Source: Gemmobacter lutimaris (GTDB lineage Bacteria > Pseudomonadota > Alphaproteobacteria > Rhodobacterales > Rhodobacteraceae). Taken from it: DNA of 64,000 bases. Positions 24,930 through 45,337 of this stretch are shown here, piece after piece. The notes under the pieces are model-generated. The model saw only the letters and a list, made by a program, of their open reading frames with translations. It ran no database searches and had not been told where the DNA came from. The stretch spans positions 62,001 through 126,000 of the forward strand of contig NZ_QXXQ01000010.1 in NCBI RefSeq assembly GCF_003570715.1, read 5' to 3'. A program made the position numbers and the translations under genes. The first letter of the stretch is position 1. Every line of letters begins with the position of its first letter.

Positions 24930-26561
24930 CTACAGCCGCGAATAGTGGCGCCCGGTCAGCCGGGCGACCACCTGCGCCAGTTCGGTATCGCGTCGCGGGG
25001 CGTCCCAGCCCAGGATTTCAGCCACAAACCCGGCGATCCGCTCCAGATCGCGCGCGCTCAGCTGGCCGGTGACCGCCAGCGCCGTGCGACGCATCACCAG
25101 ATCCTCCAGACATTGCACCTGTTCGTGCCGGGTCAGCCAACCCAATTCTTCCAGCGTGTAATCAGGCGCATCCTGCAGCGGGGTGGGTGAAGCGCCTTCT
25201 GCCGCCAGAACGGCGCGTGCCGTGGTGCCATAACGCGCCAGCAGCGTGGCGGCACGTCCGGGCGCCCCGCCCGCCTGTGCCGCCCAAGCCGCCGGGTCAG
25301 CCGGATAATCCCGCCCGCCTCCGATGGGCAGATCGCGCGTGCTGACCTGCCGCGCCCGACCAAGGCGCGACAGAACCGTATCCGCCACCTCCTCGGCAAA
25401 GCCCCGGAAGGTTGTCCACTTGCCGCCGACCAGCGAGATCACCGGCCAGTCGCGCGCGCCCGCCGCCTCGATCACCGGGGCGGAATGGTCGCGGCTGATC
25501 AGCCCCGCCGCCGTCCCGTCCGAGGCCGGCAGCGGCCGGATGCCGGAATAGGCATAGACGATCTGGCTGCGGTCGAAATGCAGCCCCGGCAGCAGGCTGC
25601 GCAGGCTTTGCAGGAAATAGTCGATCTCCGGCTCCTCGCAGCGCACGGTATCGGGGTCGTCGGCGCGGGTGTCGGTCGATCCGACCAGCGCACGGCCCAG
25701 ATAATCGAACACCAGACAGATGCGCCCGTCATCGGCCTCGAAATAGATCATCCGCCCCTTCAGCGCCGCCAGAAGCGCCGGGTGATCCAGCAGGATATGC
25801 GAACCCTTGGTGCCGCCGATCAGCCGGGTTTGCAGCCCCAGCGTAGCGTTCACGCTGTCGATCCACGGCCCGGCTGCATTGACCACCACGCGCGGGCGCA
25901 GCGCCAGTTCGGCGCCATCGACGGTGCGCAGCCGCACCGTGGCGCCCTCCGCCCCCAGCAGCGCGCAATGGTTGAAGGCGCGCGAGGCCGAGCTGGCTCG
26001 CAACCCGTCCTGCACCAGTTCCAGCACCAGCCGTTCGGGATGCGCCACCGTCGCGTCAAAGTAGCGCCCCGCCGCCACGATACGCGGCGTCAGCGGCGGA
26101 ATCTCGGCCAACGCCTTCGCCCGGCCCCACAGCGCATGGCGCGGCATGACCTGCGCCCGCGCGCCATAGAAATCATAAAGCGCGAGGCCGATCTTCATCA
26201 GCACCGCCCCGCGTGCCCGTGGCGCGGTGGTCGATCCCATCAGCGTGCGCAGCGCCGCGCCGATGCCCTTGAGCCACGAAAAGATCGGGATCACGGTCGG
26301 CAGTGGATGCACGCAATGCGGGGCGTTGCGCAAGAGAAGGTTCCGTTCCAGCGTCGATTGCGCGACAAGGCGAAACTCGCCGGTTTCCAGATACTTGATG
26401 CCGCCATGGATCAACCGCGAGGGCGCGGCCGAGGTGCCCGAGCCGTAATCGCCCTTGTCGGCGATCACGCAGGTCAGCCCCTGTTCGCACAGGTCACGGA
26501 ATAACCCGGCCCCGTTGATCCCGGCGCCGAGGATCAGCACGTCGATGGGGGTTGCAGTCAT
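24930..26561 (-). CDS. FAD-dependent polyol-/glycerol-3-phosphate dehydrogenase (GlpD-like)
   Basis: 543 aa from the ATG at 26561. The FAD-binding loop DVLILGAGINGAG opens the protein; GSGTSAAPSRLIHGGIKYLE and GGTKGSHILLDHP are DAO/GlpD-family blocks, and the C-terminal DAO_C helical domain follows. It lies 1 bp behind an FGGY kinase in the ABC-transporter operon, so it likely oxidises the phosphate ester made by that kinase and passes electrons to quinone. It differs clearly from the second homologue, EryB at 34491. Glycerol 3-phosphate is the alternative substrate. Confidence 0.85.
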   Translation of the reverse strand: MTATPIDVLILGAGINGAGLFRDLCEQGLTCVIADKGDYGSGTSAAPSRLIHGGIKYLETGEFRLVAQSTLERNLLLRNAPHCVHPLPTVIPIFSWLKGIGAALRTLMGSTTAPRARGAVLMKIGLALYDFYGARAQVMPRHALWGRAKALAEIPPLTPRIVAAGRYFDATVAHPERLVLELVQDGLRASSASRAFNHCALLGAEGATVRLRTVDGAELALRPRVVVNAAGPWIDSVNATLGLQTRLIGGTKGSHILLDHPALLAALKGRMIYFEADDGRICLVFDYLGRALVGSTDTRADDPDTVRCEEPEIDYFLQSLRSLLPGLHFDRSQIVYAYSGIRPLPASDGTAAGLISRDHSAPVIEAAGARDWPVISLVGGKWTTFRGFAEEVADTVLSRLGRARQVSTRDLPIGGGRDYPADPAAWAAQAGGAPGRAATLLARYGTTARAVLAAEGASPTPLQDAPDYTLEELGWLTRHEQVQCLEDLVMRRTALAVTGQLSARDLERIAGFVAEILGWDAPRRDTELAQVVARLTGRHYSRL

Positions 26562-26562
26562 C

Positions 26563-28077
26563 TCAGGCGGTCTCCTCGGAGGCCAGGGCCTCCAGCGCAG
26601 GCCAGATCGGGGCAAGCCGCGCAGCAATCTCGGTATGCAGCGCATAGCGGTGGGCCATCTCGGCCGCGCGGGCGGGCTGCGGGTCAAAGGTGGCGCCTTC
26701 CGGGGCGGGCGGGCCGTGGTGCGGGCTGATGTAAAGCCCCACCCCCGCACCGGCACAAAGCGCGGCGCCCCAGGCGGCGGCCTCGCCGGTGCCGGGCACG
26801 GTGACCGGCAGGTTCAGCACATCGGCAAAGAGTTGCGCGATGGCGGGATTGCGGGAAATGCCGCCTGTCAACCGCACCTCGCGCGGGGCAAAACCTTCGC
26901 GCAGCGCATCGACATGCAGGCGATGGTTGAAGGCGATACCTTCGACCACGGCGCGCAGCATGTCGCCCCGGTCATGCCAACCGCGCAGACCGAGGAAACC
27001 CGCGCTGGCCCCCGCCCCATGGGGCGAGCCGAACAGGTAGGGGTGGAACATCAGCGTCGATTGCCGGGCCAGCGCGGCTTGCAGCTCGGCCGCCGCCTGC
27101 GGATGGATCGAGTCACCGGCAGCCTCGGCCGCCTGCCGCTCGGCCCCGAAGGTGCGATCCAGCAGCCAGTCGTAATTGGTGGCCGAGGCGGGCGAGATCG
27201 CCATCGCGTTCCACTCGCCCGGCGCGATGCCGTTACGGCAGAACCAGCGCGCATCGCAAAGCGGTTGCCGCGTCACGGTTTCGTTGATCGAATAGGTGCC
27301 GGCGACGATGGCCACGATCCCCTCGCCATAGCCACTGATGCCAAGACCCGAGGCCGTCACATCATGCAGCCCCGCCACCACCGGCGTGCCGATGCGCAGC
27401 CCCGTCAAAGCCGCGGCGGCTTCGGTTACATGGCCCACCACCTGATCGGGGCGGTCGATCTGCGGTAGGTTGAGGCCGCCCAACCCGAAAATCGCGGAGA
27501 TGTCCGCCGCATGGCCCTGTGTCGTGACATCGGTGAAAGAGGTGCTGGCCTCGGTCAGATCGGTGCCGATGCTGCCGGTCAGGCAGTAACGAATCCAGTC
27601 CTTGCAGGCCAGAACATGCCCGATCCGGGCAAAGCGTTCGGGCTGATGCCGCGCGATCCACGCCAGCAGCGCCGAAGGGGCAGAGGCATGCGGTTCCTGC
27701 CCCGTGCGCGCCAGCGCCCTTGCAGCGGTGCCATCGGCCTGCCAGCCGGCGACCACCCCCGCCGCGCGACTGTCGAGCGACAGGATACCCGCGCCCAGCG
27801 GTTGCGCCGCCTGATCCAGCAGATAAACCCCGTCGCCATGCGCCGTCGCCGCCACCGCCGCGATGTCGCCCGGTGCGCGGCCAGATCGCGCCAGCGCCTC
27901 GGCCACCGCCGCGGCGGTCGCGCGCCAGAGACCGGCCATGTCGCGTTCCACATGCCGGGGCTGCGGTATCTGTTGTGGCACGCGGCGTAGCGCGGCGGCA
28001 ATCTCGCGTCCGTCCTCGTCAAAGATCACCGCCTTGCTGACGGTCAACCCGTTGTCGATACCCAGCAGGCAAGCCAT
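26563..28077 (-). CDS. FGGY-family carbohydrate kinase (polyol or L-xylulose kinase-like)
   Basis: 504 aa. The actin-like ATPase fold has an N-terminal GIDNGLTVSKAVIFD loop, GDGVYLLDQAAQPLGAGILSLDSRA, the LACKDWIRYCLTG block (about 180) typical of the L-xylulokinase/YgcE branch, and a C-terminal VRLTGGISRNPAIAQLFADVL motif. It is transcribed between the sugar-binding protein gene and the GlpD-like dehydrogenase gene, so kinase and dehydrogenase form a second catabolic pair beside EryA/EryB. The substrate (another tetritol, a pentitol or a ketose) is not determined by sequence. Confidence 0.85.
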   Translation of the reverse strand: MACLLGIDNGLTVSKAVIFDEDGREIAAALRRVPQQIPQPRHVERDMAGLWRATAAAVAEALARSGRAPGDIAAVAATAHGDGVYLLDQAAQPLGAGILSLDSRAAGVVAGWQADGTAARALARTGQEPHASAPSALLAWIARHQPERFARIGHVLACKDWIRYCLTGSIGTDLTEASTSFTDVTTQGHAADISAIFGLGGLNLPQIDRPDQVVGHVTEAAAALTGLRIGTPVVAGLHDVTASGLGISGYGEGIVAIVAGTYSINETVTRQPLCDARWFCRNGIAPGEWNAMAISPASATNYDWLLDRTFGAERQAAEAAGDSIHPQAAAELQAALARQSTLMFHPYLFGSPHGAGASAGFLGLRGWHDRGDMLRAVVEGIAFNHRLHVDALREGFAPREVRLTGGISRNPAIAQLFADVLNLPVTVPGTGEAAAWGAALCAGAGVGLYISPHHGPPAPEGATFDPQPARAAEMAHRYALHTEIAARLAPIWPALEALASEETA

Positions 28078-28168: not shown

Positions 28169-29116
28169 TCACTCGGACAGGGTGAAGGCCGCAGTGTATT
28201 TGTCCACGTTGTCCTTGGTGATCAGCAGGCAGTCGAAAAGCTGCTTTTCGGTCGCCGCGCCGGTGGAGCCGGTCTTGATCACGTTGTCGGCCTGACGCAC
28301 GGCTTCGGCCGAGAACACGGCGACGGGTTGCAGGACGGTATATTGCATCTCGCCCGCCTTCACCGCCGCGACCGCATCGGGCGAACCGTCAAAGCCGCCG
28401 ACCTTCACCTGATCCAGCTTGCCCGCCTCTTTCAGCGCAGCAATCGCACCCAGCGCCATCTCGTCATTGCCCGAAATCACACCGATGATGTCGGGGTTGG
28501 CTTGCAGCAGCGACTGCATCTTCTGATACCCTTGGGTGCGGTCCCAGTTCGCCACTTCCTTGCCGACCTTTTCCAGATCCGGGTATTGGGTGATGACGGT
28601 CTCATAGCCGTTGGAACGGGTCGCGGCATTGTTGTCCGACGGATTGCCGAACAGCTCGACATATTTGCCGGCGTCGCCCACATCGGCCACCCACTGTTCC
28701 GCCCCCAGCGCGGCGCCTTGCGCGTTGTTCGACACGAGCTGCGCCTTGGCGAGGCCTTCCTGGTTGATCTCGGCATTCACGAGGATCACCGGGATGCCCG
28801 CATCCACGGCCTTCTTCACGGCCCCGATGGAGCCATCGGCATTTGCCGGGTCAAGGATGATGGCGGCCGACTTGTTGGTGATCGCGGTGTCGATCAGCGT
28901 GCTTTCGGTGTTCGTGTCGCCCTTGTGGGCCGAAACATTGGCCGTGTAGCCCATGCTTTCGGCGGTGGCCTTGGCCACTTCGCCCTCGGTGAACCAGTAG
29001 GGGTTCGCCGGGTCGGTGACGATGATCGAGATCAGACCCTCGGCTGCAGCGGCATAGCTCATCAGCGGGGTCACGGCCACGGCGGCCATCAGGGCGCGGC
29101 GGGTCAGTTTCAGCAT
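28169..29116 (-). CDS. eryG: Sugar/polyol ABC transporter substrate-binding protein (EryG-like)
   Basis: 315 aa, starting at the ATG at 29116 behind GGGAGAGAG. The N-terminus has a signal peptide with twin Arg (KLTRRALMAAVAVTPLMSYAAA). The mature part is a ribose-binding-type protein: IIVTDPANPYWFTEGEVAKAT, IILDPANADGSIGAVKKAVDAGIPVILVN, and GNDEMALGAIAALKEAG. It captures the polyol in the periplasm for EryF/EryE. The gene name rests on the ery locus context, as in Rhizobium leguminosarum eryEFG. Confidence 0.85.
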   Translation of the reverse strand: MLKLTRRALMAAVAVTPLMSYAAAAEGLISIIVTDPANPYWFTEGEVAKATAESMGYTANVSAHKGDTNTESTLIDTAITNKSAAIILDPANADGSIGAVKKAVDAGIPVILVNAEINQEGLAKAQLVSNNAQGAALGAEQWVADVGDAGKYVELFGNPSDNNAATRSNGYETVITQYPDLEKVGKEVANWDRTQGYQKMQSLLQANPDIIGVISGNDEMALGAIAALKEAGKLDQVKVGGFDGSPDAVAAVKAGEMQYTVLQPVAVFSAEAVRQADNVIKTGSTGAATEKQLFDCLLITKDNVDKYTAAFTLSE

Positions 29117-29210: not shown

Positions 29211-30251
29211 TCAGCCCTTGCGGGCCCCTTTGCCGTATTGGATGGAGTTCATCAGCACCGCGAGCACGATCACCGCGCCGGTGAACACGGTCTGCCAGTA
29301 GGACGAGACCCCGATGATCACGAGCCCGTCGGACAGGAAGCCGATGACGAAGGCGCCCAGCATGGTGCCGCGCACCGTGCCGCGCCCGCCGGTCAGCGCG
29401 GCGCCGCCGATGACCACCGCCGCGATGGCGGTCAGTTCATAGGTGGTGCCCGCGGTCGGCCCGGCCGAGGTGAGCTGCGACGACAGCACCAGCCCCGCCA
29501 CCGCCGCCAGCATGCCCGACAGGGTGTAGACGGTGATCTTCACCCGCTTGACCGGCACGCCCGACAGATCGGCCGCACGTTCATTGCCGCCCGAGGCGTA
29601 GAGCCAGCGCCCGAAAGCCGACCGGCTGAGCATCAGCCCCGCCAGAACCGCAATTCCCGCCAGCACCAGAACCGAGATCGGAATGCCCGCCAGCCGGTTG
29701 AAGCCCAGCCAGTCGAAGCCGGTGTTGCCCAGTTCCGGGCGCCCCGAAAGATTGTTGTAGGTCAGGCCGTTGGTCATCAGCAGGGCGATGCCGCGCGCCA
29801 CATACATCACCCCCAGCGTGGCGACAAAGGCGGGCACCTTGAACCAGGCAATCAGCACGCCGTTCACCGCGCCCACCGCCGCGCCCAGCGCGCAGGTCAG
29901 CACCACGACCGCCCAGACCGGCGGGTAGAGGATGACGCCCAGCGCCTGCATCTCCACCCCCTGCATCAGCGCCCCGGCGATCACGCCGGAAAGCGCCAGC
30001 ACCGAACCGACCGACAGGTCGATCCCGCCGTTCAGGATCACCAGCAGCATGCCCACGGCCAAGATGCCGTAAATCGCCACATGGCTGGCCATGATGAGGA
30101 AGTTCGACACCGTGAAATAGTTCGGCGACAGAAAGGAAAACACGGCGACGATCAGGATCAGCGCAAAGAAGGCGCGACCTTCCAGCAGCAGCCGGCCAAG
30201 GCTGAAGGCGGGTTTCGCGGCGGCCGTGCGGGCGAGTGTGGTATCCGACAT
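29211..30251 (-). CDS. eryF: Sugar/polyol ABC transporter permease (EryF-like)
   Basis: 346 aa. A ribose-type (RbsC) permease with about ten hydrophobic segments, including ALILIVAVFSFLSPNYFT, ILNGGIDLSVGSVLALSGVIAG (the characteristic GxxDLSVG block, about 73-95), and the coupling-helix region NERAADLSGVPVKRVKI. It forms the inner-membrane channel for the binding protein and the double-domain ATPase. Same orientation, 37 bp after the ATPase gene. Confidence 0.9.
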   Translation of the reverse strand: MSDTTLARTAAAKPAFSLGRLLLEGRAFFALILIVAVFSFLSPNYFTVSNFLIMASHVAIYGILAVGMLLVILNGGIDLSVGSVLALSGVIAGALMQGVEMQALGVILYPPVWAVVVLTCALGAAVGAVNGVLIAWFKVPAFVATLGVMYVARGIALLMTNGLTYNNLSGRPELGNTGFDWLGFNRLAGIPISVLVLAGIAVLAGLMLSRSAFGRWLYASGGNERAADLSGVPVKRVKITVYTLSGMLAAVAGLVLSSQLTSAGPTAGTTYELTAIAAVVIGGAALTGGRGTVRGTMLGAFVIGFLSDGLVIIGVSSYWQTVFTGAVIVLAVLMNSIQYGKGARKG

Positions 30252-30288: not shown

Positions 30289-31830
30289 TCAGGCCGCCAC
30301 GGACTCGCCCGAGGCGGCCATGATCTTTTCCTTGCTGACGTTGGAATCGAATTCGGCCGAGATGCGGCCCTTGTGCATGACGATGATCCGATGCGCGATC
30401 GACAGGCATTCACCGACTTCCGAGGTCGAATAGATCACGGCAAGGCCGCGCTTCGCCTCTTCGGCCAGCAGCTTGAACACCTCGGCCTTGGCGCCGATGT
30501 CGATGCCGCGCGAGGGTTCGTCCAGCATGATGACGCGGGGTTTCGTGGCCAGCATCTTGCCGATGACGACCTTCTGCTGGTTTCCGCCAGAGAGTGAACC
30601 GATGGCGGCGGCCGGGCCGGAAGTCTTGACCGTCACCTCTCGGATAGAGGCGTCGATCAGCGCGCGTTCGGCCTTCTTCTGGGTGAACAGCCCTTTGGTA
30701 AAGCTGGCGATGGAGGCAAGCGACAGGTTTTCCCCCACGCTCATGGTCTGCACCAGCCCGTCGCGCTGCCGATCCTCGGGCACCAGCGCAAGACCGCGCG
30801 CAATGCGTTCGGCGATGGACAGATGCGAGATTTCGCGCCCCTCCAGCACCACTTCGCCGCTGCTGGCGCGCAGACGGCCCGCCACAGTTTCCAGAAGCTC
30901 CGTCCGCCCGGCGCCCATCAGCCCGTAGATGCAGACCACCTCGCCCGCGCGCAGATCCAGCGACAGCCGGTCCACCACGTTGAAGGCGCCGCCCTTGGGA
31001 TCGGCCACCGTCAGGTCACGCACCGACAAGGCCACTTCGCCAAAGACATGCCCCTCGGGCGGGCTGCCCAGATCGTAATTGTCGCCCACCATATTGCGGA
31101 CGATCCACTCAAGGTCGATCTCGGCGCGCGGCGCATAGGCGGTCATGGTGCCGTCGCGCAGCACCACGGCATGATCGGTGATCTGCAACGCCTCTTCCAG
31201 ATGGTGCGAAATATAGACGATGCTGACGCCCTTGGCCGTCAGGTCGCGGATGACCTTGAACAGCACCTCGACCTCGGAGGCCGAAAGCGCGCTGGTCGGT
31301 TCGTCCATGATCAGGATGCGGCTGTCCACCGACAGGGCGCGGGCGATTTCCACGATCTGCTGCTGGCCAAGGCGCAACTCCTCCACCGGGGTCAGCGGGT
31401 CGATGTCTTCCTCAAGCTCTGCCATCAGGCGGCGGGCCTGACGTTCTTCCTCGGCGAAATCGACGCCGGTCGGGCCCATGATCTCGCGCCCCATGAAGAT
31501 ATTGTCGCGCACGCTCAGGTTCGGGGCGAGGCTGAGTTCCTGGTGGATGATGGAAATGCCGCGATCCCGCGCCTCGGTCGAATTGTTGAAGGCAACCGGC
31601 TTGCCATCCAGAATGATCTCGCCGCTGGTCGGCTGGATCACCCCCGACAGGATCTTCATCAGCGTCGATTTGCCCGCGCCATTCTCACCGAAAAGCGTGG
31701 TCACCTGCCCGCGATGGATGTCGAAGTTCACGCCCTTCAGAGCGTGCACATTGCCGTAGGATTTCGCCACGTTGCGGGCCGCCAGAACGACCTCGGCCAG
31801 ATCCGGCTTCTGCTGCGGAACATCGGTCAT
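30289..31830 (-). CDS. eryE: Sugar/polyol ABC transporter ATP-binding protein, two ABC domains (EryE-like)
   Basis: 513 aa RbsA-type protein. Domain 1 has Walker A GENGAGKST (about 52), signature LRLGQQQIVEIARAL and Walker B ILIMDEPTSAL. Domain 2 has the degenerate Walker A GLMGAGRTE (about 300), SGGNQQKVVIGKML and VIMLDEPSRGID. One competent and one degenerate site is normal for this family. The start overlaps the end of the DUF2291 gene by 4 bp. Confidence 0.92.
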   Translation of the reverse strand: MTDVPQQKPDLAEVVLAARNVAKSYGNVHALKGVNFDIHRGQVTTLFGENGAGKSTLMKILSGVIQPTSGEIILDGKPVAFNNSTEARDRGISIIHQELSLAPNLSVRDNIFMGREIMGPTGVDFAEEERQARRLMAELEEDIDPLTPVEELRLGQQQIVEIARALSVDSRILIMDEPTSALSASEVEVLFKVIRDLTAKGVSIVYISHHLEEALQITDHAVVLRDGTMTAYAPRAEIDLEWIVRNMVGDNYDLGSPPEGHVFGEVALSVRDLTVADPKGGAFNVVDRLSLDLRAGEVVCIYGLMGAGRTELLETVAGRLRASSGEVVLEGREISHLSIAERIARGLALVPEDRQRDGLVQTMSVGENLSLASIASFTKGLFTQKKAERALIDASIREVTVKTSGPAAAIGSLSGGNQQKVVIGKMLATKPRVIMLDEPSRGIDIGAKAEVFKLLAEEAKRGLAVIYSTSEVGECLSIAHRIIVMHKGRISAEFDSNVSKEKIMAASGESVAA

Positions 31831-32483
31831 TTCACGGTGATCCTAACAGGAGTGATCATCCAGTTTTTCGGATTCACCAGCCGGAACGCGCCGATGACCT
31901 CGACCGTCCTGCCTTGCAACGATGCGGTATCCAGCCCGTCCAGCACCGCCTTCTTCATGGCGCGGTTTATGCCCGAACCAGCGTCCTGATATTCGATCTG
32001 GTTCTTGAAATTCCCGAAAGCGATGTCTCCCGGCGCATCGCGCAGATCGGTGCCATTGATCGCCGGGCCGGTTTGCAGCCGGACCTTGATTTCCGCTGGC
32101 ATACCCTCGACTGCAAGCTGGTAGACGCCTGACTTGCCTTCGCCCACCACACCCGAAAGCTTCACCGGAATGATGGCCCCTGTCGAAGACACGGTGCCGT
32201 ATTTCTGACCCGCCGCCGCCTTGTCTGCCAGCGCCTCGGGCGCCACCAGAAGCGCATCGACCGCACGCTCCTCGATATTGGCCTGAATGCGGGGGAATTC
32301 CGCCTCGCCAAAGCTGTCGGGCGAAAATGCCTGCTGGCGGACATCCAGATCAGACCCCAGATGCACCACCTTGGTATCCAGCGCCATGGCAGCCAGAAGC
32401 GCGACGCCCAGCCCGACAGCAATCATCAGACCACGGCGTGAAGGGGCGGGCGCCTTGGGGGCGGGGGTGTTTACGGTGCTCAT
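31827..32483 (-). CDS. DUF2291 protein, accessory to the polyol ABC transporter
   Basis: 218 aa from the ATG at 32483, preceded by AGGGAGAG. A Pro/Ala-rich N-terminus (about 1-15) leads to one transmembrane helix (GLMIAVGLGVALLAAMAL), then a soluble, probably periplasmic domain (AEFPRIQANIEERAVDA, and a C-terminal EVIGAFRLVNPKNWMITPVRI). DUF2291 genes are recurrent first genes of polyol ABC operons, but their role is unknown. Overlap with eryE (ATGA) shows translational coupling. Confidence 0.8.
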   Translation of the reverse strand: MSTVNTPAPKAPAPSRRGLMIAVGLGVALLAAMALDTKVVHLGSDLDVRQQAFSPDSFGEAEFPRIQANIEERAVDALLVAPEALADKAAAGQKYGTVSSTGAIIPVKLSGVVGEGKSGVYQLAVEGMPAEIKVRLQTGPAINGTDLRDAPGDIAFGNFKNQIEYQDAGSGINRAMKKAVLDGLDTASLQGRTVEVIGAFRLVNPKNWMITPVRITVK

Positions 32484-32890: not shown

Positions 32891-34489
32891 ATGGCATCAG
32901 AAGACTCCGGGGCATCGTCAGGGTCCGGGCGCGATCTGCTGATCGGCATTGATGCGGGCACGTCGGTCATCAAGGCCGTGGCCTTCGATCTGACCGGACG
33001 GCAGATCGATTCGGCGGCCGTTCCGAATCGCTATGCCAACGGCGCGGGCGGGGCGGTGACGCAATCGCTGGCCAATACCTGGGCTGATTGCACCGCCGCG
33101 CTGCGCGGTCTGGGCGCGAAGGTCGAAGGGCTGGCCTTCCGCACCGCTGCGCTGGCCGTCACCGGGCAGGGCGATGGCACATGGCTTGTCGGGGCGCACA
33201 ACCTGCCAGCAGGCGATGCCTGGCTCTGGCTGGATGCCCGCGCGGCACCAACTGTTGCGCGACTGGCCGCCACCCCGGCGAACCGCGCAAGATTCGAGGC
33301 GACGGGCACCGGGCTGAACACCTGCCAGCAGGGCAGCCAGCTTGCCCATATGCAGACGCATCATCCCGAGCTTCTGGCACAGGCCGAGGTCGCGCTGCAT
33401 TGCAAGGACTGGCTTTATCTCAACCTGACCGGGGTGCGCGCCACCGATCCGTCGGAGGCCAGCTTCACCTTCGGCAATTTCCGCAACCGCGCCTATGACG
33501 ATGCGGTGATTGACGCGCTGGGCCTGACCGCGCAACGCCACCTGCTGCCCGAAATCATTGACGGCACGCAGGTCACCCATCTGTTGACACCTGAGGCCGC
33601 CGCGCAGACCGGGCTTCTGGCCGGCACGCCGGTCAGCCTTGGCTATGTGGACATGGTGATGACAGCACTGGGCGCCGGCGTCGTGGGCGGGGCGGGCGAT
33701 GTAGCCTGTTCCACCGTCGGCTCCACCGGCGTGCACATGCGCGCGGTTGCGGCAGGCAATGTGCATCTGAACGCCGAGGGCACCGGCTATGTGATCTGTC
33801 TGCCGGTGCCCGGTCTGGTCACGCAGGTGCAGACCAACATGGCCGCCACGCTGAACATCGACTGGGCGCTGGGTCTTGCCGCCGATGTGTTGCGTGACTT
33901 CGGCCACGACACCGCCCCGCGCGATCTGGTCGCCCGGATCGACGGTTGGCTGGCGCAAAGCGCGCCGGGGCAGATCGTCTATATGCCCTATATCTCGGCC
34001 GCGGGCGAACGCGGTCCCTTCGTCAACGCCGATGCCCGTGCGGGCTTCACCGGCCTGTCTCTGAACCACCGTTACCCCGACATCCTGCGCGCCGTGGCCG
34101 AGGGGCTGGGCCATGCCATGCGCGACTGTTACGCCGCAATGGGCAGCCTGCCCGGTGAGTTGCGCCTGACCGGCGGCGCCGCGCGCTCGCACGGGCTGCG
34201 TGGCATCCTCTCCGCTGCCATCGACGCGCCGGTGCGCGTGTCGGCCCGCGAAGAGGCCGGGGCGGCGGGCGCTGCCATGATGGCCGCCGTCGCCATCGGC
34301 GCCTACCCGGACATGCACGCCTGCATCGCCGACTGGGTCACACCGCTTCTGGGCGCGCCCGAGACCCCCGACCCCGGGCTGGTCGCCGCCTATGGCCGCA
34401 TCTTTCCCGCTTTTGCCGCCGCGCGGCGTGGCCTTGTCCCCGCCTGGGACGCGCTGGCCGCCGCCCGGTCGTTCCATGAAGGAGACTGA
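32891..34489 (+). CDS. eryA: Erythritol kinase
   Basis: 532 aa from the ATG at 32891. FGGY kinase with GIDAGTSVIKAVAFD at about residue 18, the substrate-region GQGDGTWLVG, ALHCKDWLYLNLTG (about 170) and the C-terminal LRLTGGAARSHGLRGILSAAI. It phosphorylates erythritol to L-erythritol 4-phosphate. Identification rests on family plus an exact eryA-eryB-eryC-(adh)-eryD order. Followed by eryB after 1 bp. Confidence 0.88.
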   Translation: MASEDSGASSGSGRDLLIGIDAGTSVIKAVAFDLTGRQIDSAAVPNRYANGAGGAVTQSLANTWADCTAALRGLGAKVEGLAFRTAALAVTGQGDGTWLVGAHNLPAGDAWLWLDARAAPTVARLAATPANRARFEATGTGLNTCQQGSQLAHMQTHHPELLAQAEVALHCKDWLYLNLTGVRATDPSEASFTFGNFRNRAYDDAVIDALGLTAQRHLLPEIIDGTQVTHLLTPEAAAQTGLLAGTPVSLGYVDMVMTALGAGVVGGAGDVACSTVGSTGVHMRAVAAGNVHLNAEGTGYVICLPVPGLVTQVQTNMAATLNIDWALGLAADVLRDFGHDTAPRDLVARIDGWLAQSAPGQIVYMPYISAAGERGPFVNADARAGFTGLSLNHRYPDILRAVAEGLGHAMRDCYAAMGSLPGELRLTGGAARSHGLRGILSAAIDAPVRVSAREEAGAAGAAMMAAVAIGAYPDMHACIADWVTPLLGAPETPDPGLVAAYGRIFPAFAAARRGLVPAWDALAAARSFHEGD

Positions 34490-36967: not shown

Positions 36968-38110
36968 ATGACCCAAGCCTTCGCCTTCGCCACCGCAACC
37001 GAAATCCTGTTCGGACGCGGAAAGCTGGTCGAGGCACCGGGCCGCATCGCGGCCTTGGGGCGGCGTGTCCTGCTGGTTGGCGGGGCGACACCTGCCCGTG
37101 CGGCGCCACTGGCCTCCGCGCTGGCAGCAGCAGGTTGCACGGTCACGCATATCGCCGTGCCGCGTGAACCCGATGTGCCGCTGATCGAGGCCGGGGTGGC
37201 ACTGGCCCGCACCACGGGCGCCGAAGTCGTCGTGGCCCTCGGCGGCGGGGCGGTGATCGACGCGGGCAAGGCCATCGCCGCCATGGTGCCCGCCCCGCGC
37301 CCGATGCTGGACCATCTGGAGGTCGTGGGCCTTGGCCTGCCGCTGGATGTGCCCCCCCTGCCCTTCGTTGCCATCCCCACCACGGCCGGCACCGGGGCCG
37401 AGGTCACGCGCAACGCTGTGATCGGCGTGCCGGATCACGCCCGCAAGGTCAGCCTGCGCGACGCGCGGATGCTGCCGCGTCTGGCGCTGGTCGATCCGGC
37501 GCTGACCGATGGCTGCCCGCGCGCCATAACGCTCGCCTCGGGGCTGGATGCGATCACGCAGGTAATCGAGCCTTTCACCAGCACCCGCGCCAACCCGCTG
37601 ACCGATGCGCTTTGCGCCGATGCCATCCCGCGCGGTCTGGCGGCGCTGCAACGGCTGATGCAGGGCGAGGACGCACCGGCGCGCGACGAAATGGCTTGGG
37701 TAAGCCTGTGCGGCGGCCTCGCGCTGGCCAATGCCGGGCTGGGCGCCGTGCACGGGCTGGCCGGCCCGCTTGGCGGGCTGACCGGCGCCGCGCATGGCGC
37801 GATCTGCGGCGCGCTTCTGCCGCATGTGCTGCGCGCCAATCGCCGTGCGGTGACCGATCCGGCGCGGCTGGACCGGGTGGCAGGCTGGCTTGCCGCAGCC
37901 TTCGACACGGCGCCCGACATGGACAGTGCCGCACAGGCTCTGTCTGTATGGTCGCAAAGCGCCGGTCTGCCCGGCCTGGCCGCGCAAGGCATCGGTCCAA
38001 AGGCCCGCGCCGCAGCGGCACAGGCCGCCGCCACTTCGTCCTCGATGAAGGCCAATCCGGCGGCTCTGTCGGAAGCCGATCTTGTCGCCGTCCAAGACGC
38101 CGCCGCCTGA
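36968..38110 (+). CDS. Iron-containing (group III) alcohol dehydrogenase family protein
   Basis: 380 aa. Nucleotide-binding GGGAVIDAGKAIAAM (about 93-107) and TTAGTGAEVTRNAVI are typical. The metal site reads GLDAITQVIEPF, so the His of the usual D-x3-H is Gln; the two later His are kept (AVHGLAGPLGG and AAHGAICGALLPH). A subset of the family carries this Gln, so metal use may differ. It sits between eryC and eryD with short gaps (25 and 10 bp) and may oxidise or reduce a polyol or aldehyde side product. Substrate unknown. Confidence 0.85.
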   Translation: MTQAFAFATATEILFGRGKLVEAPGRIAALGRRVLLVGGATPARAAPLASALAAAGCTVTHIAVPREPDVPLIEAGVALARTTGAEVVVALGGGAVIDAGKAIAAMVPAPRPMLDHLEVVGLGLPLDVPPLPFVAIPTTAGTGAEVTRNAVIGVPDHARKVSLRDARMLPRLALVDPALTDGCPRAITLASGLDAITQVIEPFTSTRANPLTDALCADAIPRGLAALQRLMQGEDAPARDEMAWVSLCGGLALANAGLGAVHGLAGPLGGLTGAAHGAICGALLPHVLRANRRAVTDPARLDRVAGWLAAAFDTAPDMDSAAQALSVWSQSAGLPGLAAQGIGPKARAAAAQAAATSSSMKANPAALSEADLVAVQDAAA

Positions 38111-38120: not shown

Positions 38121-39080
38121 ATGGCCCGCCGCAGCCCGCTTGACCCCGAGGAAAGCCTCGCCATCCGCGCGGCCTGGCTGCATTACGCGGGCGGGCTGAC
38201 ACAGGCCGCCGTGGCGAAACGGCTGGGCCTGCCCTCGGTGAAAACCCACCGGCTGATCGCGCGGGCGGTGGCGGACGGTGCGGTCAAGGTGTCCATCGAC
38301 GGCGCGATTGTCGAATGCGTGGAACTGGAGCAACAGTTGGCCACCCGCTACGGGCTGGAAAGCTGCGAGGTTGCCCCCGATCTGGGGGAAGAAGGGCTGC
38401 CGCTGCGCGCGCTGGGCCTGGCGGGCGCGGGCTTCCTGCGGCGGGTCATTGAAAGCGGTGAACATGCGGTGATCGGCCTTGGCCATGGCCGAACGCTCGC
38501 CGCCGCCGTTCAGCAACTGCCGCGCTTTGACGCCGGGGGCACGCGCTTCGTCTCGCTTCTGGGCGGGTTGACGCGGAACTACGCCGCCAACCCGCATGAC
38601 GTGATGCACCGCATGGCCGAAAAGACCGGCGCGCAATCCTATGTCATGCCGGTGCCCTTCTTCGCCAATTCGGCCGAGGACCGGGCGATCCTGCTGGCAC
38701 AACCCGGCGTGCGCGAGGTGTTCGACATGTCAAACGGCGCCGGGCTGAAGGTGGTGGGCATCGGCACCGCCGACGCCGATGCACAGCTTGTTGCCTCGGG
38801 CATGATCGAGCCGCGCGAGATCGCCGAGATCAATGCGGCGGGCGGCGCGGGCGAGATGCTGGGCCATTTCTTCGACGCCACCGGGCATGTGCTGGAAACC
38901 ACGCTGACGGCACGGACCTTGGCCGTGGATCTGGACGGGCCAGAGGGCAGCCATGTCGTCGCCATCGCAGGCGGTCCGGGCAAGGTGGCGGCTGTGCGGG
39001 CGGTATTGAACAGCGGGCGGTTGCGGGGCCTCATCACCGACGAGGCCACCGCCATGGCATTGATGGCGGACGCGGGCTAG
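38121..39080 (+). CDS. eryD: Sugar-binding transcriptional regulator EryD (SorC/DeoR-type)
   Basis: 319 aa from the ATG at 38121. An N-terminal helix-turn-helix ([25 protein letters not shown], about 28-52) is followed by the SorC sugar-phosphate-binding domain with [27 protein letters not shown] and [15 protein letters not shown]. EryD represses ery genes until erythritol or its phosphate is present. Last gene of the eryABC-adh-eryD operon; its TAG stop shares a CTAG with the convergent tkt stop. Confidence 0.9.
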
Positions 39081-41095
39081 CCCCGCGCCAAAAGCTTCGC
39101 CCGCGCCATGATCGCCTCTTTGGTGATGCCAAACTCCTGATACAGCCGCTCTGCCGGGGCAGAGGCGCCGAAGCCGGGCATACCGATCACGTCATCCTCC
39201 GATGCGACATAGCGGGTCCAGCCGAACTTGCCCGCAGCCTCGACCGCGATGCGGGGGGCATCGCCCATCACAATGGCACGGTATTCGGCGCTCTGCGCCT
39301 CGAACAGTTCCCACGACGGCATCGAGACGACAGCGACCGCCATGCCTTCGCCATGCAGCGCCTCGGCCGCCTCGACCGCCAACGCGACCTCGGTGCCGGT
39401 GGCGATCAGCGTCACATCCCGCCCTTCGCCGAACTGGCGGATCACATAGGCGCCCTTCGCGGTCAGGTTTTCGGCTCCCGCCTCCAGACGCAGTTGCGGC
39501 ACGTCCTGACGCGACAGCGCCATCAGCGAGGGCACATGGCGGTTGCGAATGGCGATATCCCAGGCTTCCAGCGTTTCCACCACATCGGCGGGGCGGAACA
39601 CCGTCAGCCCCGGAATGGCGCGCAACGAGGCCATGTGTTCGATCGGCTGGTGGGTCGGACCGTCCTCGCCCAGACCGATGCTGTCATGCGTCATCACATA
39701 GACGACCCCCAGCCCCATCAGCGCCGAAAGCCGGATCGCATTGCGGCAATAGTCGGAAAACACAAGGAACGTGCCACCATAAGGGAGGAACCCGCCATGC
39801 AGGGCGAAGCCGTTCATCGCCGCAGCCATCCCGAATTCGCGCACGCCATAGCCGATGTAACGGCCCGGCGCCTCGCGCGTATACTGGCTGTCCACCGCCG
39901 GAACGCGCGTGAGGTTCGACCCGGTCAGATCAGCCGAGCCGCCGATCATTTCAGGCAGCGCCGGGGTCAGTGCCTCCAGCGCCATCTGGCTGGCCTTGCG
40001 GGTGGCGGCTTTCTTCGGCTGGGCAAAAAGTGTCGCACGCGCTTTGGCCAGTGCCGCCTCATAACCGGCAGGCAGATCGCACGACAGGCGGCGCAGAAAT
40101 TCGGTGCGTTCCGACTCGGGGCGGGCGGCAAGGCGTGCCTCCCATGCCGCACGGTCCGCAGCCCCGCGCACCCCGATGGCCCGCCATTCGGCGCCCAATT
40201 CGGCGGGAATTTCAAACGGCGCAGCAGTCCAGCCCAGCGCCGCCTTGGTCGCCTCTGCCTCCGCCGTGCCCAGCGGGGCGCCATGCACCGCATAGGTGCC
40301 TGCCTTGCCGGGCGAACCGAAGCCGATCACGGTTTTCAGGGCGATCAGCGAGGGCTTCGCGGTTTCCGCCTTGGCCGCCGCGATGGCTGCATCCAGCGCC
40401 TGCCCGTCATGGCCATCGCAGCTTTGCACATGCCATCCACAGGCCCGCAGACGCGCAGGCACATCCTCGGAGAAACTGACTGACGTTGGCCCATCAATGG
40501 TGATGGCATTGTCATCGTAAAGCACGATCAGCTTGCCCAGCCCTAGATGTCCGGCAAGGCTGATCGCTTCTTGCCCGATGCCCTCTTGCAGGCAGCCATC
40601 GCCCAGAAACACATAGGTATGGTGGTCCACCAGATCGGCGCCGAACTCGGCCGCCAGCCGCTGTTCCGCCAGCGCCATGCCAACGGCGGTGGCTATGCCC
40701 TGCCCCAGCGGCCCGGTCGTGACCTCGATCCCTTGCGCATGGCCATATTCCGGGTGGCCCGCCGTAATCGCGCCCCATTGCCGGAAATTGCGGATCTGAT
40801 CCAGCGTCATATCCTCATAGCCGGTCAGATGCAGCAGCCCGTAAAGCAGCATCGAGGCATGGCCGTTCGACAGCACGAAACGATCGCGATCCGGCCATCC
40901 GGGATTCTTCGCGTCAAATTTCAGGTGCTTGCGGAACAGCACGGCAGCCGCATCCGCCATCCCCATCGGTGCGCCGGGATGACCGGATTTCGCCGCCTCC
41001 ACCGCGTCGATGGCCAGCGCGCGCAGGCAGTTGGCAAGCGCAAAGTTCTGCGGGTCAAGCGCGGCCTTGGCCGCGATGGCGTTGTCCATCGGCAT
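39077..41095 (-). CDS. tkt: Transketolase
   Basis: 672 aa from the ATG at 41095, which has AGGAGGA 7 nt upstream. The thiamine-diphosphate motif is [28 protein letters not shown] (about 155-190); [20 protein letters not shown] and [19 protein letters not shown] are transketolase signatures. It moves two-carbon units between erythrose 4-phosphate, fructose 6-phosphate and pentose phosphates, so it can drain the end product of the erythritol pathway. Transcribed divergently from deoR. Confidence 0.95.
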
Positions 41096-41132
41096 GGGCG
41101 TCCTCCTGTTTGCGCTAACGTAACTTCCGCTC

Positions 41133-41193
41133 TGTGATTTCACAACAAAAATCACATCATAAATCACAAAATAACAATAATCATGTTGTGATA
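41133..41193. promoter_or_regulatory. Operator cluster between tkt and deoR
   Basis: An AT-rich stretch holds a perfect palindrome TGTGATTTCACA (41133-41144), then two direct AAATCACA-type copies (around 41150-41168), and a GTTGTGAT in the opposite sense near 41185-41192. All share a TCACA/TGTGA core. The site faces both tkt and the deoR-eryHI-fbp-fba operon. Binding by the adjacent DeoR protein is inferred from position and repetition. Confidence 0.6.
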
Positions 41194-41236
41194 TGCCGCG
41201 CCCATGTTAGAAAGCCATCAGCAGCAGGAGGGAATC

Positions 41237-42001
41237 GTGAAGCGCGAGGAACGCAGACAGGCGATCATGGATCTGCTGGTCGAGGCGCGCGCCGTCGATC
41301 TGGATGACCTGGCCGACCGCTTTGCCGTGTCGAAAATGACCATTCACCGCGATCTGGACGATCTGGAACAGGCGGGCCTGCTGCGCAAGGTGCGCGGCGG
41401 CGCCACCATCGAGGCGGGAACCCAGTTCGAAAGCGATTTCCGCATCCGCGAATTGCAGGACGGCGCCGCCAAGGCCCGCATGGCCCGCGCAGCACTGGAG
41501 CTGATCGAACCGGGCATGACAGTGATGATCAACGATGGCTCCATGGCCGCACTGCTGGGTGCCTCGCTGGTGGAAAAGCGGCCGCTGACCGTCATTACCA
41601 ACAACGCCGCCATCATCGACCGGCTGCGCAATGAAGCCGGGATCACCCTCATCGCGCTGGGCGGCGTGTTCAGCGCCAAGTTCAACGGCTTTTTCGGCGT
41701 GGTGACCGAGGGCGCGCTGGCGCGGCTGCGCGCCGACATCGCCTTCATCTCCTCCCCTGCCGTCTCGGGCCTGCAAGCCTTTCACATGGATGACGCCGTG
41801 GTGCGCGCTAAGCGCGCCATGATGGCGGCTTCGGCCCGCTGCTGCCTGCTGGTAAACCACACCCGTTTCGGCCGCTCGGCGCTGCATGTGCTGGCCGACC
41901 TGACGGAATTCGACACCATCATCACCGACGATGCCCCCGCGCCCGAGGATCGCGCCGCGCTGGACCGCGCGGGGATCGCCCTGACCATCGCCAAGGATTG
42001 A
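41237..42001 (+). CDS. DeoR-family regulator of the eryHI operon
   Basis: 254 aa from the GTG at 41237, selected because AGGAGGG lies 4 nt upstream; an ATG at 41204 is in frame but without such a site. N-terminal DeoR helix-turn-helix (VDLDDLADRFAVSKMTIHRDLDDLEQAGLLRKVRGGA), then a phosphosugar-sensing domain with MINDGSMAALLGA and VITNNAAIIDRL. Rhizobial ery loci have a DeoR gene in the same place before tpiB-rpiB. Candidate ligand: a tetrose or sugar phosphate. Confidence 0.88.
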   Translation: MKREERRQAIMDLLVEARAVDLDDLADRFAVSKMTIHRDLDDLEQAGLLRKVRGGATIEAGTQFESDFRIRELQDGAAKARMARAALELIEPGMTVMINDGSMAALLGASLVEKRPLTVITNNAAIIDRLRNEAGITLIALGGVFSAKFNGFFGVVTEGALARLRADIAFISSPAVSGLQAFHMDDAVVRAKRAMMAASARCCLLVNHTRFGRSALHVLADLTEFDTIITDDAPAPEDRAALDRAGIALTIAKD

Positions 42002-42004
42002 CAC

Positions 42005-42769
42005 ATGGAACCGCAAGTCTGGATCGGCACAAGCTGGAAGATGAACAAGCTGCTGACCGATGGCCGCGCCTTCGCCGAAGGGCTGCGCGCTGCCGACGCC
42101 GCACGCGACCCGCGCATCCAGCGCTTTGTCATACCGCCCTTCACCCTTGTGCGCGAAGTCAAGGCGGCGCTGGCCGATACCAGCGTCAAGGTCGGTGCGC
42201 AGAACATGCATTGGGCCGATGACGGTGCCTGGACCGGCGAGGTTTCGCCCCTGATGCTGAAGGATTGCGGGCTGGACATCGTGGAACTGGGCCACAGCGA
42301 ACGGCGCGAACATTTCGGCGAGACCGACAAGACCGTCGGCCTCAAGACCGAGGCGGCGGTGCGTCACGGGCTGATCCCGCTGATCTGCATCGGCGAAACG
42401 CTGGCTGAGCGCGAATCAGGTCGCGCGCAAGAGGTGCTGGAGACGCAGGTGCGTGGCGCCCTGGGCAAGCTTTCGGGGGCGCAGAAACAGGCGCAGATCC
42501 TGCTGGCGTATGAACCCGTCTGGGCCATCGGGGTGAACGGCATCCCCGCGACCTCCGATTACGCCGATGCGCGTCAGGCCGAGATCATCGCGGTGGCCGA
42601 AGACGTGCTCGGCCGCCGCATCCCCTGCCTCTACGGCGGCTCGGTCAATCCGGGCAACTGCGAGGAACTCATTTCCTGCCCGCATATCGACGGGCTGTTC
42701 ATCGGGCGCTCGGCGTGGAATGTCGAAGGTTACCTCGACATTCTGGCCCGCTGCGCCGCCAAACTGTGA
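42005..42769 (+). CDS. eryH: EryH: triosephosphate-isomerase-like tetrulose 4-phosphate isomerase
   Basis: 254 aa. TIM-fold with the catalytic Lys in GTSWKMNK, His in VELGHSERR and Glu in AYEPVWAIG, and phosphate-loop YGGSVNPGN. The SWKMNK start (rather than NWKMN) and the ery context mark it as TpiA2/EryH, shown in Brucella to turn D-3-tetrulose 4-phosphate into an intermediate towards erythrose 4-phosphate. It follows deoR after 3 bp. Ordinary triosephosphate isomerase activity is the alternative. Confidence 0.87.
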
Positions 42770-42780: not shown

Positions 42781-43242
42781 ATGAAACTGGCAATTGCAGG
42801 CGACAGCGCGGGTGAAGGTCTGGCCAAGGTTCTGGCCGACTACCTGAAAGGCAAGCACGATGTGGCCGAGATCAGCCGCACCGATGCCGGCCCCGATACC
42901 TTCTACGCCAACCTCTCGGACCGCGTGGCGAGCGCGGTTCTGGCCGGCACCTATGACCGGGCGATCCTTGTCTGTGGCACCGGCATCGGCGTCTGCATCG
43001 CGGCGAACAAGGTGCCGGGCATCCGCGCCGCGCTGACGCATGACACCTATTCCGCCGAACGCGCCGCGCTGTCGAATAATGCGCAGATCATCACTATGGG
43101 CGCCCGCGTCATCGGAACGGAGCTTGCGAAGGCTATTGCGGATGCATGGTTGGCCGAAACGATGAATTTTGACGCGAATGGCCGGTCCGCCAGCAATGTT
43201 TGCGCCATTGATGAGGTGGACGCGAAGTACAACAAGCGGTAA
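42781..43242 (+). CDS. eryI: EryI: RpiB-like D-erythrose 4-phosphate isomerase
   Basis: 153 aa from the ATG at 42781. RpiB/LacAB-fold with the active-site Cys in [23 protein letters not shown] (about 60-80) and a His in [23 protein letters not shown]. In Brucella the homologue makes D-erythrose 4-phosphate, the last isomerisation of erythritol catabolism. 11 bp after eryH. Ribose 5-phosphate isomerase B is the close family relative. Confidence 0.87.
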
Positions 43243-43305: not shown

Positions 43306-44298
43306 ATGATGCTTCGCCTGCCCAATGACGGCGCTGCCACCGGCACGCCGCTGGACGAATACCTGCGCGCGCGCGGCGGGGCGGCGGCTATCGTCGCGGC
43401 ACTCGCCCATGCCTTGCCACCGCTGGCCGACCGGCTGGCCGCCGGGCGCCTGCATGGCGACCCCGAGACCATCGTCGGCACCAACGATTCCGGCGACAAG
43501 CAGAAGGCGCTGGACGTTGCCGCGCATGATCACATGCTGGCGGCCCTTGCCGCCGCCGGTGTGCGCAAGGTGCTGTCGGAAGAAGCCGAGGCGGTGATCG
43601 ACCTTGCGCCCGAGGGCACCTTCGACGTGGCCATCGACCCGATCGACGGCTCCGGCTCTATCGGAATCGGCGCGCCGCTGGGGATGCTGTTTTCCATCCT
43701 GCCCGCCGCGCCCGAGGGCTTTCTGCGGACCGGCCGCGCCATCGTGGCGGCGGGCTATGCCTCTTTCGGGCATAGCTGCGACTTCGGCTTCTCGTTGGGC
43801 GAAGGCGTGATCATCGCCACCTTCGACCGCGAGCTGAACGGCTTTCGCATTGCCCGCGAGGGCGTGACGCTGAAGCCGGAAACGAAAAGCATCGCCTATA
43901 ACGCCTCGAACGAACGGCACTGGCCCGAGGGGCTGCAAGCCTGGGCGCGCGACCTGCGCGCCGGCAAGGAAGGCCCGCGCGGCAAGGATTTCAACATGCG
44001 CTGGCTGGCGGCGGCGGTGGGCGAACTACACCGCATCCTGCTGCAGGGCGGCGTGTTCCTCTATCCCGCCGACCGCCGCAAGGGATATGAAAACGGCCGC
44101 CTGCGGCTGGTCTATGAAGCCGCGCCCATCGCTTTCCTGATGGAACAGGCCGGCGGCAAGGCCACCGATGGCGCGATGCCGATCCTCGACCGGCAGCCGC
44201 AAGCCTTGCACGAAAATACCGCTTTGATCTTCGGCGCCGCGGAAGAGGTCGATACAATCGGCACCTACCTCGGCGCCCCCAACCCCCGACAAGGATGA
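43306..44298 (+). CDS. fbp: Class I fructose-1,6-bisphosphatase (possible sedoheptulose bisphosphatase)
   Basis: 330 aa from the ATG at 43306 behind GAAAGGGG. The metal and phosphate site [12 protein letters not shown] (about 116-127) and [32 protein letters not shown] (about 250-285) identify the class I FBPase family, not GlpX. In Calvin-cycle operons such enzymes also cleave sedoheptulose 1,7-bisphosphate. Here it lies between eryI (64 bp) and fba (4 bp) and would act on aldolase products. Confidence 0.9.
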
Positions 44299-44302
44299 TT
44301 CC

Positions 44303-45337
44303 ATGGCCCGGATCACGCTTCGCCAACTGCTCGACCACGCCGCCGAAAACGGCTACGGCGTTCCCGCCTTCAACATCTCGAACATGGAACAGGGGCTGGC
44401 CATCATGGCCGCCGCGAAGGCGACCAATTCGCCGGTCATCATTCAGGCGAGCCGCGGCGCCCGCTCTTACGCCGGTGACCGCGTTCTGGCCCGCCTGATC
44501 GACGGCCTGACCGAAACCTACCCGAACATCCCGGTCTGCATGCACCTTGACCACGGCAACAACCTTGCCACCTGCGCGACCGCCATCCAGAACGGCTTCA
44601 CCTCGGTGATGATGGACGGGTCGCTGAAAGAGGACGGCAAGACCCCTGCCGACTACGCCTATAACCGCAACATCACCAAGGCGGTGGTCGATATGGCCCA
44701 TGCCTGCGGCGTGTCGGTCGAGGGCGAGCTGGGCGTTCTGGGCAGCCTTGAAACCGGGATGGGCGATCAGGAAGACGGCCATGGCGCGACCGAGAAGCTG
44801 AGCCATGATCAGCTTCTGACCGACCCGGCCGAAGCCGAGAAATTCGTGGCCGAAACCGGCGTCGATGCGCTGGCCATCGCCATGGGCACCTCGCATGGCG
44901 CTTACAAGTTCACCCGCAAACCCGACGGCGACATCCTTGCGATGCACGTCATCGAGGAAATTCACCGCCGCCTGCCGAACACCCATCTGGTGATGCACGG
45001 CTCGTCCTCGGTGCCCGAGGATCTGCAAAAGATCATCAATGCCTATGGCGGCGACATCAAGCCGACATGGGGCGTGCCGGTCGAGGAAATCCAGCGCGGC
45101 ATCAAATCGGGCGTGCGCAAGATCAACATCGACACCGACAACCGCCTTGCCGCGACCGCCGCGATCCGCAAATCTTTTGCGGAAGATCCGGCCGAGTTCG
45201 ACCCGCGCAAATATCTGAAGGCGGCGATGGGCATGATGACCGAGGTCTGCAAGCAGCGGTTCGAGGCTTTCGGCACCGCTGGCAACGCCGACAAGATCCG
45301 CGTCATGCCGGTCGAAGTCATGGCGAAACGCTACTGA
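44303..45337 (+). CDS. fba: Class II fructose-bisphosphate aldolase, Calvin-cycle subtype
   Basis: 344 aa. Zn-dependent aldolase with [10 protein letters not shown] (zinc His, about 80-89), [15 protein letters not shown], the SHGAYKF zinc-ligand block and [12 protein letters not shown]; this is the CbbA-type. It interconverts fructose 1,6-bisphosphate with triose phosphates and, in this subtype, often sedoheptulose bisphosphate with erythrose 4-phosphate and DHAP. Last gene of the deoR operon; the 3' 7 bp overlap the convergent ligase gene. Confidence 0.94.

Follow-up and report, generated by a model that had tools for sequence, protein, structure and literature searches.

How does an erythritol catabolic locus come to contain a transketolase, a class I fructose-1,6-bisphosphatase (FBPase) and a class II aldolase, and what could the three enzymes do there? 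The question is raised by a locus of the alphaproteobacterium Gemmobacter lutimaris (window positions 24,930-45,337; the window is the whole stretch of 64,000 nucleotides that we analysed, positions 62,001 to 126,000 of contig NZ_QXXQ01000010.1, assembly GCF_003570715.1). We think it likely that erythritol catabolic genes are combined here with a dedicated cassette for the conversion of C4 phosphates to hexose phosphates, which serves as a reusable back end. This proposal builds on the gene content of the locus, on clades of enzymes that are linked to such loci, and on their recurrent linkage in several gene orders. Enzyme specificity, induction and flux in this organism are inferred; in Brucella, the bypass via sedoheptulose-1,7-bisphosphate (SBP) catalyzed by Fba and Fbp as well as its induction have been shown.

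The erythritol locus and the proposed route to hexose phosphates

Profile scans of the open reading frames (ORFs) recovered every gene of the original prediction: eryABC, an iron (Fe)-type alcohol dehydrogenase gene, eryD, deoR-eryH-eryI, a DUF2291-eryEFG transporter operon, and tkt, fbp and fba for the transketolase, the class I FBPase and the class II aldolase. The orthologs of eryA, eryB, eryC and eryD lie together, the transporter operon is divergent from eryA, and the EryI protein encoded behind deoR and eryH scores above the cut-off of the NF051858 model. By its gene content, this is thus an erythritol locus of the type known from Brucella and Rhizobium leguminosarum. Chance can be ruled out, since relatives carry these genes close together as well, at roughly 55-100% identity; window EryC is 67-96% identical to EryC at the ery loci of relatives. 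The prediction had described the whole route as one unit. Indeed, uptake, phosphorylation, isomerisation and entry into central carbon metabolism are encoded in one neighbourhood, but by strand the locus consists of four blocks rather than one transcription unit.

In the proposed route, EryEFG would import erythritol, EryA, EryB and EryC would convert it to D-3-tetrulose-4-phosphate, and EryH and EryI would form D-erythrose-4-phosphate (E4P). In Brucella, the steps of EryA, EryB, EryC, EryH and EryI to E4P are established (PMC11005471, PMC11508834). The class II aldolase may then condense E4P with dihydroxyacetone phosphate (DHAP) to SBP, the class I FBPase would irreversibly hydrolyse SBP to sedoheptulose-7-phosphate, and the dedicated transketolase, together with the ordinary Rpi, Rpe and Tpi enzymes, would use sedoheptulose-7-phosphate, glyceraldehyde-3-phosphate (GAP) and E4P to make fructose-6-phosphate (F6P) without a transaldolase step. 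The same enzymes should also be able to run classical gluconeogenesis from fructose-1,6-bisphosphate to F6P. Since, except for Rpi, Rpe and Tpi, every enzyme of the SBP route is represented in the gene set, an erythritol front end would be joined to a C4-to-C6 back end, and the linkage of aldolase and class I FBPase to the E4P-forming genes is what a bypass of transaldolase via SBP calls for. The original prediction had the route end at pentose phosphates. It need not stop there: if the FBPase acts on SBP, reaction balancing gives 3 E4P -> 2 F6P + inorganic phosphate, as compared to 3 E4P -> F6P + 2 GAP for the transaldolase route.

Parts of this arrangement are known from Brucella. The B. abortus cluster BAB2_0364-0378 combines fbp, fba, rpiB, tpi, deoR, eryDCBA and rbsACB-deoR; it was reported in 2012 to be induced by erythritol, along with a transaldolase gene at another site, and its fbp and fba genes (BAB2_0364-0365) adjoin rpiB/eryI (PMC3522698). 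An aldolase in the ery locus was noted by Geddes in 2013 (PMC3599248), and in 2024 the conversion of E4P to sedoheptulose-7-phosphate by Fba and Fbp/Bbp, substituting for transaldolase, was published (PMC11005471). The placement of an FBPase and a CbbA-type aldolase in the locus, which had been put forward as unusual, is therefore no novelty. As in this bypass, an aldolase and a class I Fbp acting on SBP would channel E4P to the pentose phosphate shunt, here as judged from the genes. Unlike in Brucella, where Bbp acts too, the transketolase is built into the window locus, and eryI is followed by fbp-fba in the same orientation. In B. abortus they are on the opposite strand, the main text of PMC3522698 does not name a transketolase (0 occurrences), and the locus as described there has no second kinase/dehydrogenase pair (kin2/dh2, see below) and no mention of an Fe-type alcohol dehydrogenase. 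The synthetic EuMP cycle in its SBP variant, which leads via LerI and DerI to E4P and from E4P to F6P as proposed here, was designed and engineered in Escherichia coli, whereas the window contains a natural gene set (PMC10733421). In the parts covered of the open-licence literature searched, we found no account of three features: the dedicated transketolase of the ery locus, for which the claim of an unusual gene stands, the transaldolase gene next to tkt in related genomes, and the tkt-fbp-fba-eryH-eryI run that lies away from eryABCD and has oiaX in its vicinity.

Phylogeny and copy number of the three central-carbon enzymes

The trees, all rooted at the midpoint, include proteins from a sample of 121 genomes, among them the genome studied here (G000), and show that the transketolase and the FBPase of the window belong to locus-linked clades. 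In the FBPase tree, ten sequences, nine from the sample and one from Ochrobactrum, form a clade (support 100/100) apart from 21 others, CbbF-like proteins among them; with sequences from plasmids, the clade has 20 members (SH-aLRT 100), of which 14 are encoded beside eryH/eryI and one in a locus of the threitol type. Two genomes (G004, G049) each possess one FBPase of this clade and a second one outside of it. Similarly, nine ery-linked transketolases form a single clade (SH-aLRT 100) apart from CbbT and from the other transketolase of the genome. The aldolase tree is weaker: a group of seven sequences (97/89) comprises six ery-linked ones and that of G003, on whose contig no ery genes were seen.

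These trees bear on the idea that the trio is a displaced Calvin-cycle remnant, cbbF-cbbT-cbbA, left after the loss of RuBisCO and phosphoribulokinase. The three enzyme types are the same, SBP chemistry is known for the Calvin cycle, the cbb operon of P. kondratievae contains them in the order F-P-T-A-L-S-X, and in S. fredii GR64 the depositors named the genes cbbT, cbbF and cbbA2. However, the ery copies of both fbp and tkt branch apart from cbbF and cbbT (the reference sequences come from one annotated cbb operon, L225, the others being labelled cbb from fbp-fba-tkt linkage). Moreover, a DeoR gene adjoins the trio and no cbbP or cbbLS was found alongside: neither RuBisCO nor phosphoribulokinase was named among the 30 ORFs scanned at 18,616-54,258, the rest of the genome not having been searched for either. 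Because fbp and tkt fall outside the CbbF and CbbT clades, we rejected a cbb origin of the trio, which seems very improbable.

It had been pointed out with the prediction that the three genes might simply be the only copies in the genome (4.66 Mb in 76 contigs, 100% complete according to the tool used). This was rejected for tkt, of which a second copy, 53% identical to the ery-type one, is present on contig C63. For fbp the objection is weakened: the window gene is the sole PF00316 match, but a class II FBPase of the GlpX type is encoded elsewhere. For fba it may hold; the window gene is the sole match to PF01116, the family to which this statement applies. A single transaldolase ORF of 231 amino acids, which from its length we take to be the short TalC-like type, lies on a different contig from the locus.

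The copy numbers also relate to a second explanation, according to which aldolase and FBPase serve ordinary gluconeogenesis, are in the locus by happenstance and, on erythritol, act on fructose-1,6-bisphosphate only, with E4P entering metabolism via transaldolase. The single PF01116 aldolase and the presence of a transaldolase fit this view. On the other hand, PF01116 is matched in 46 of the 121 genomes and not in 75, and PF00316 in 29 including our own, so neither family is a constant housekeeping component across the sample; furthermore, the genome has its GlpX enzyme, and most members of the clade that contains the window FBPase are ery-linked.

Linkage of the cassette in relatives and on plasmids

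EryI (NF051858, E <= 1e-40) was found in 13 of the 121 genomes, in nine of them above the cut-off of the model. We excluded two matches (G097, G032) from the counts below as other RpiB-type proteins, with 48-50% identity to window EryI and no adjoining eryH; in all 11 remaining genomes, our own included, eryH adjoins eryI. The ery-type tkt adjoins deoR or eryH in six of these (G000, G001, G007, G009, G049, G052), an FBPase of the ery clade lies in the locus of seven (G000, G001, G004, G009, G012, G020, G049), possibly eight as the contig of G007 ends in an FBPase piece of 87 amino acids, and the aldolase is present in five (G000, G001, G004, G009, G012). All three occur together in G000, G001 and G009. 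The suggested comparison of gene order thus bore out that the locus genes, with tkt and fbp of the locus-linked clades, recur in the same neighbourhood. In the loci of G002 and G013, eryC-eryH-eryI alone are seen, the G002 contig ending 3 kb away. In two relatives, a transaldolase match lies on the strand of the ery tkt match, 26-29 bases away from it (G049, C3:32049-32684; G009, C2:56036-56674), and in G049 this is the sole transaldolase found. Both known exits from E4P, transaldolase as well as aldolase plus FBPase, have thus been drawn into the loci of relatives.

The erythritol locus of Rhizobium johnstonii pRL12 (L210) shares with the window eryABCD, DUF2291-eryEFG, deoR-tpi, kin2-dh2 and fba; unlike the window, it has an extra DeoR gene before kin2, and neither tkt nor fbp is present in the 29.6 kb read, a stretch that ends inside eryH.

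Plasmids gave a broader view of the cassette. We listed 60 fbp matches of 227 records and examined 15 neighbourhoods: In nine, eryH and eryI lie beside fbp, one combines a 58% identical eryI with deoR and tkt-fbp-fba, four are orphans (two fbp-fba, two fbp alone), and one is a true cbb operon. Many of the fbp matches listed (H44-H54) are from isolates of bean (Phaseolus). The gene content is constant but the order varies: (i) The window order tkt, deoR-eryH-eryI-fbp-fba is shared by Paracoccus sp. TOH and Roseibium aggregatum and, without deoR, by Thalassospira marina. (ii) In Roseinatronobacter, deoR-eryHI is divergent from tkt-fbp-fba, and in P. seriniphilus deoR-eryHI-fbp-fba, with no adjoining tkt, lies about 160 kb from eryABCD on the same plasmid. 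(iii) Four plasmids of rhizobia and Agrobacterium (L230, L231, L227, L224) carry the genes as a run on one strand, namely tkt-fbp-fba-eryH-eryI in Rhizobium acidisoli and S. fredii GR64, this order but a transketolase split in two in R. gallicum, and tkt-fbp-fba-deoR-eryH-eryI in Agrobacterium salinitolerans. No eryABCD was seen near these four runs, two of which were read for 15 kb on each side and two for only 6-7 kb. The EryI proteins of R. acidisoli and A. salinitolerans pass the NF051858 cut-off, and in the 15 kb read on each side of their runs (L230, L231) the oiaX gene for 3-oxo-isoapionate-4-phosphate decarboxylase is found at a distance of 9-10 kb, in R. acidisoli together with a four-carbon acid sugar kinase gene. 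OiaX is an enzyme of apiose/apionate breakdown; its product, L-erythrulose-1-phosphate, belongs to the substrate class of EryH. In addition, G032 has an ery-clade FBPase gene beside those for a GolD/DthD-family dehydrogenase, pieces of the dihydroxyacetone kinase family, RpiB, an ABC transporter and a partial transketolase, a set that resembles a threitol-type locus.

Several observations weigh against a dedicated C4-to-hexose cassette. First, because the genome retains transaldolase, the SBP bypass would not be obligatory. Second, two genomes with eryH-eryI (G002, G052) have no PF00316 or PF01116 match genome-wide, G020 has fbp but no PF01116 match in its genome, and in G013 the copies are located away from the locus, so the cassette is dispensable for some genomes of this kind. 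Third, for five of the 20 FBPase clade members, the stretch read shows no ery genes (P. yeei, P. aminovorans and G003 with fbp-fba; Salipiger and Alloyangia with fbp alone). Finally, the Ochrobactrum aldolase falls outside the group of the other ery-linked aldolases, and the assayed Fbp of Brucella is absent from the FBPase tree, in which the Ochrobactrum enzyme (L008), encoded at the same position as the ery-linked Fbp of Brucella, is found within the clade. G002 and G052 as well as the growth of B. suis on erythritol without Fba (PMC11005471) also suit purely gluconeogenic enzymes. Nevertheless, the trio travels with eryH-eryI even where no eryABCD is seen nearby, and with this taken into account, a presence by happenstance is unlikely in our opinion.

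Accessory genes, regulation and implications

Genes were called by a codon-position method and the longest ORFs, with starts trimmed by eye and identities from profile scans (Table 1).

Table 1. Features of the erythritol locus in window coordinates (L numbers are our handles for loci compared)
Feature	Position	Strand	Evidence
dh2, second GlpD-like FAD polyol-phosphate dehydrogenase, end of transporter operon	24930..26561	-	DAO/DAO_C; PRK12266 247 bits, below cut-off 360
kin2, second FGGY polyol kinase	26563..28077	-	FGGY_N/C
eryG-type sugar-binding protein	28169..29116	-	Peripla_BP_4, RbsB-like
eryF-type permease	29211..30251	-	BPD_transp_2, RbsC-like
eryE-type ATPase	30289..31830	-	two ABC domains, RbsA/XylG-like
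DUF2291 periplasmic lipoprotein, start of transporter operon	31827..32483	-	PF10054 6.2e-39; start trimmed by eye
eryA, erythritol kinase	32891..34489	+	FGGY; 68-79% identity to ery-locus kinases of L006, L008, L015
eryB, erythritol-4-phosphate dehydrogenase	34491..36002	+	PRK13369 871 bits; 82-88% to EryB of L006, L008, L015
eryC, tetrulose-4-phosphate racemase	36010..36942	+	EryC-type TIM barrel; Pfam AP_endonuc_2 only; 84% to EryC of L006, L008, L015
Fe-type alcohol dehydrogenase	36968..38110	+	PF00465/PF25137
eryD, SorC-family regulator	38121..39080	+	PF04198
ery-type transketolase, divergent from deoR	39077..41095	-	TIGR00232 824 bits, cut-off 682
tkt/deoR divergent spacer, candidate DeoR operators	41096..41203	.	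ATCACA/AACA repeats, chosen after viewing spacers
deoR/eryR regulator	41204..42001	+	DeoRC + HTH_DeoR
eryH (TpiA2/LerI-type), tetrulose-phosphate isomerase	42005..42769	+	PRK00042 430 bits; 79-85% to EryH of L006-L008
eryI (RpiB/DerI), D-erythrulose-4-phosphate isomerase	42781..43242	+	NF051858 246.5 bits, cut-off 240
Class I FBPase of ery clade, candidate SBPase/FBPase	43306..44298	+	NF006780 381 bits, cut-off 358
Class II aldolase, candidate for DHAP + E4P condensation	44303..45337	+	TIGR01521 605 bits, cut-off 496

Searches of solved structures with the window proteins returned general family names only. The Fe-type alcohol dehydrogenase gene is present in five of the 11 eryHI genomes, located between eryC and eryD, and in Zhengella (L007); among solved structures, its product comes closest in sequence to methanol dehydrogenase and lactaldehyde reductase.

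Two kinase/dehydrogenase pairs had been predicted and are present, yet this is not special to the window, as the second pair also occurs in the pRL12 locus, with a dh2 ortholog of 64% identity. It is conceivable, if somewhat doubtful, that kin2 and dh2 confer the use of a second substrate, threitol or another polyol, which would be imported by the same transporter and meet erythritol at the level of tetrulose phosphate. This idea is supported by the low identity of Kin2 to EryA (31%) and of Dh2 to EryB (30%), by the position of the pair, spaced by 1 base in the window, at the end of the transporter operon in the window, G001, Paracoccus TOH, P. seriniphilus, Shinella and pRL12 (in the last two behind a DeoR gene), and by its occurrence without transporter or ery genes on plasmid pAK1 of Paracoccus AK26 (L211, 18464-21626). 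An isozyme pair or a glycerol-like route could account for the genes as well. The kin2 gene is present in six of the 11 loci and dh2 in five (the stretch of G009 stopped about 0.9 kb beyond kin2), and the two adjoin in G001, G004, G020, G012 and in L210 to L214. A second substrate would add to the proposed erythritol route rather than compete with it, and threitol is a guess.

As for regulation, the gaps along deoR-eryH-eryI-fbp-fba are 3, 11, 63 and 4 bases with the starts as trimmed, and these genes are therefore likely transcribed together. The hexamers ATCACA and TCACAA are each present in nine of ten spacers between tkt and deoR (or eryH), and in the spacers between the DUF2291 gene and eryA, AAAAAAAT occurs in 16 of 17 and TAACTGAA in six of 17. 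As the motifs were spotted by eye in these spacers before they were counted, the peak of the hexamers between tkt and deoR is a description rather than a test. As a lead, the arrangement suggests two regulons, with DeoR acting on tkt and deoR-eryHI-fbp-fba and EryD acting on eryABC, the alcohol dehydrogenase gene and eryD.

Just outside of the ery genes, at 24,270-24,927, an FMN riboswitch (RF00050, 117 bits) is followed by a gene for a type II lumazine synthase (RibH2, NF009084 above cut-off). RibH2 exceeds this cut-off in 29 of the 121 genomes, in nine of the 11 with eryHI and in 20 of the 110 others (Fisher p 3.4e-5, phylogeny ignored); in six of the nine (G000, G001, G004, G009, G049, G052) its gene shares a contig with eryI and lies no more than 25 kb away. 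Six of the 11 loci L006-L016 have lumazine synthase matches, counted irrespective of type, of 54-75% identity near eryHI. In Brucella, the RibH2 gene was called an isolated ORF, and the word erythritol occurs 0 times in that paper (PMC2828483). One might think of flavin supply for EryB and Dh2, or of a C4-phosphate substrate.

It is tempting to speculate that EryH, EryI, Tkt, Fbp and Fba form a natural and portable cassette for turning any tetrulose phosphate into hexose phosphate without transaldolase, that at least two alphaproteobacterial front ends, for erythritol and for isoapionate/apiose via OiaX, make use of it and one for threitol perhaps does so in part, and that the FBPase and transketolase subfamilies are specialised on the SBP branch; we give this extended proposal equal chances of being right or wrong. 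The locus would tie a route recently described in Brucella, in which aldolase and SBP hydrolysis replace transaldolase, to a genomic signature found in non-pathogenic bacteria. It also suggests that there is a subfamily for C4 sugars among the class I FBPases now annotated as gluconeogenic. In genome annotation, members of these FBPase and transketolase clades may mark tetrulose-phosphate pathways, and a natural C4-to-C6 cassette would be useful where a synthetic route, for example the EuMP cycle, has E4P as its end product.

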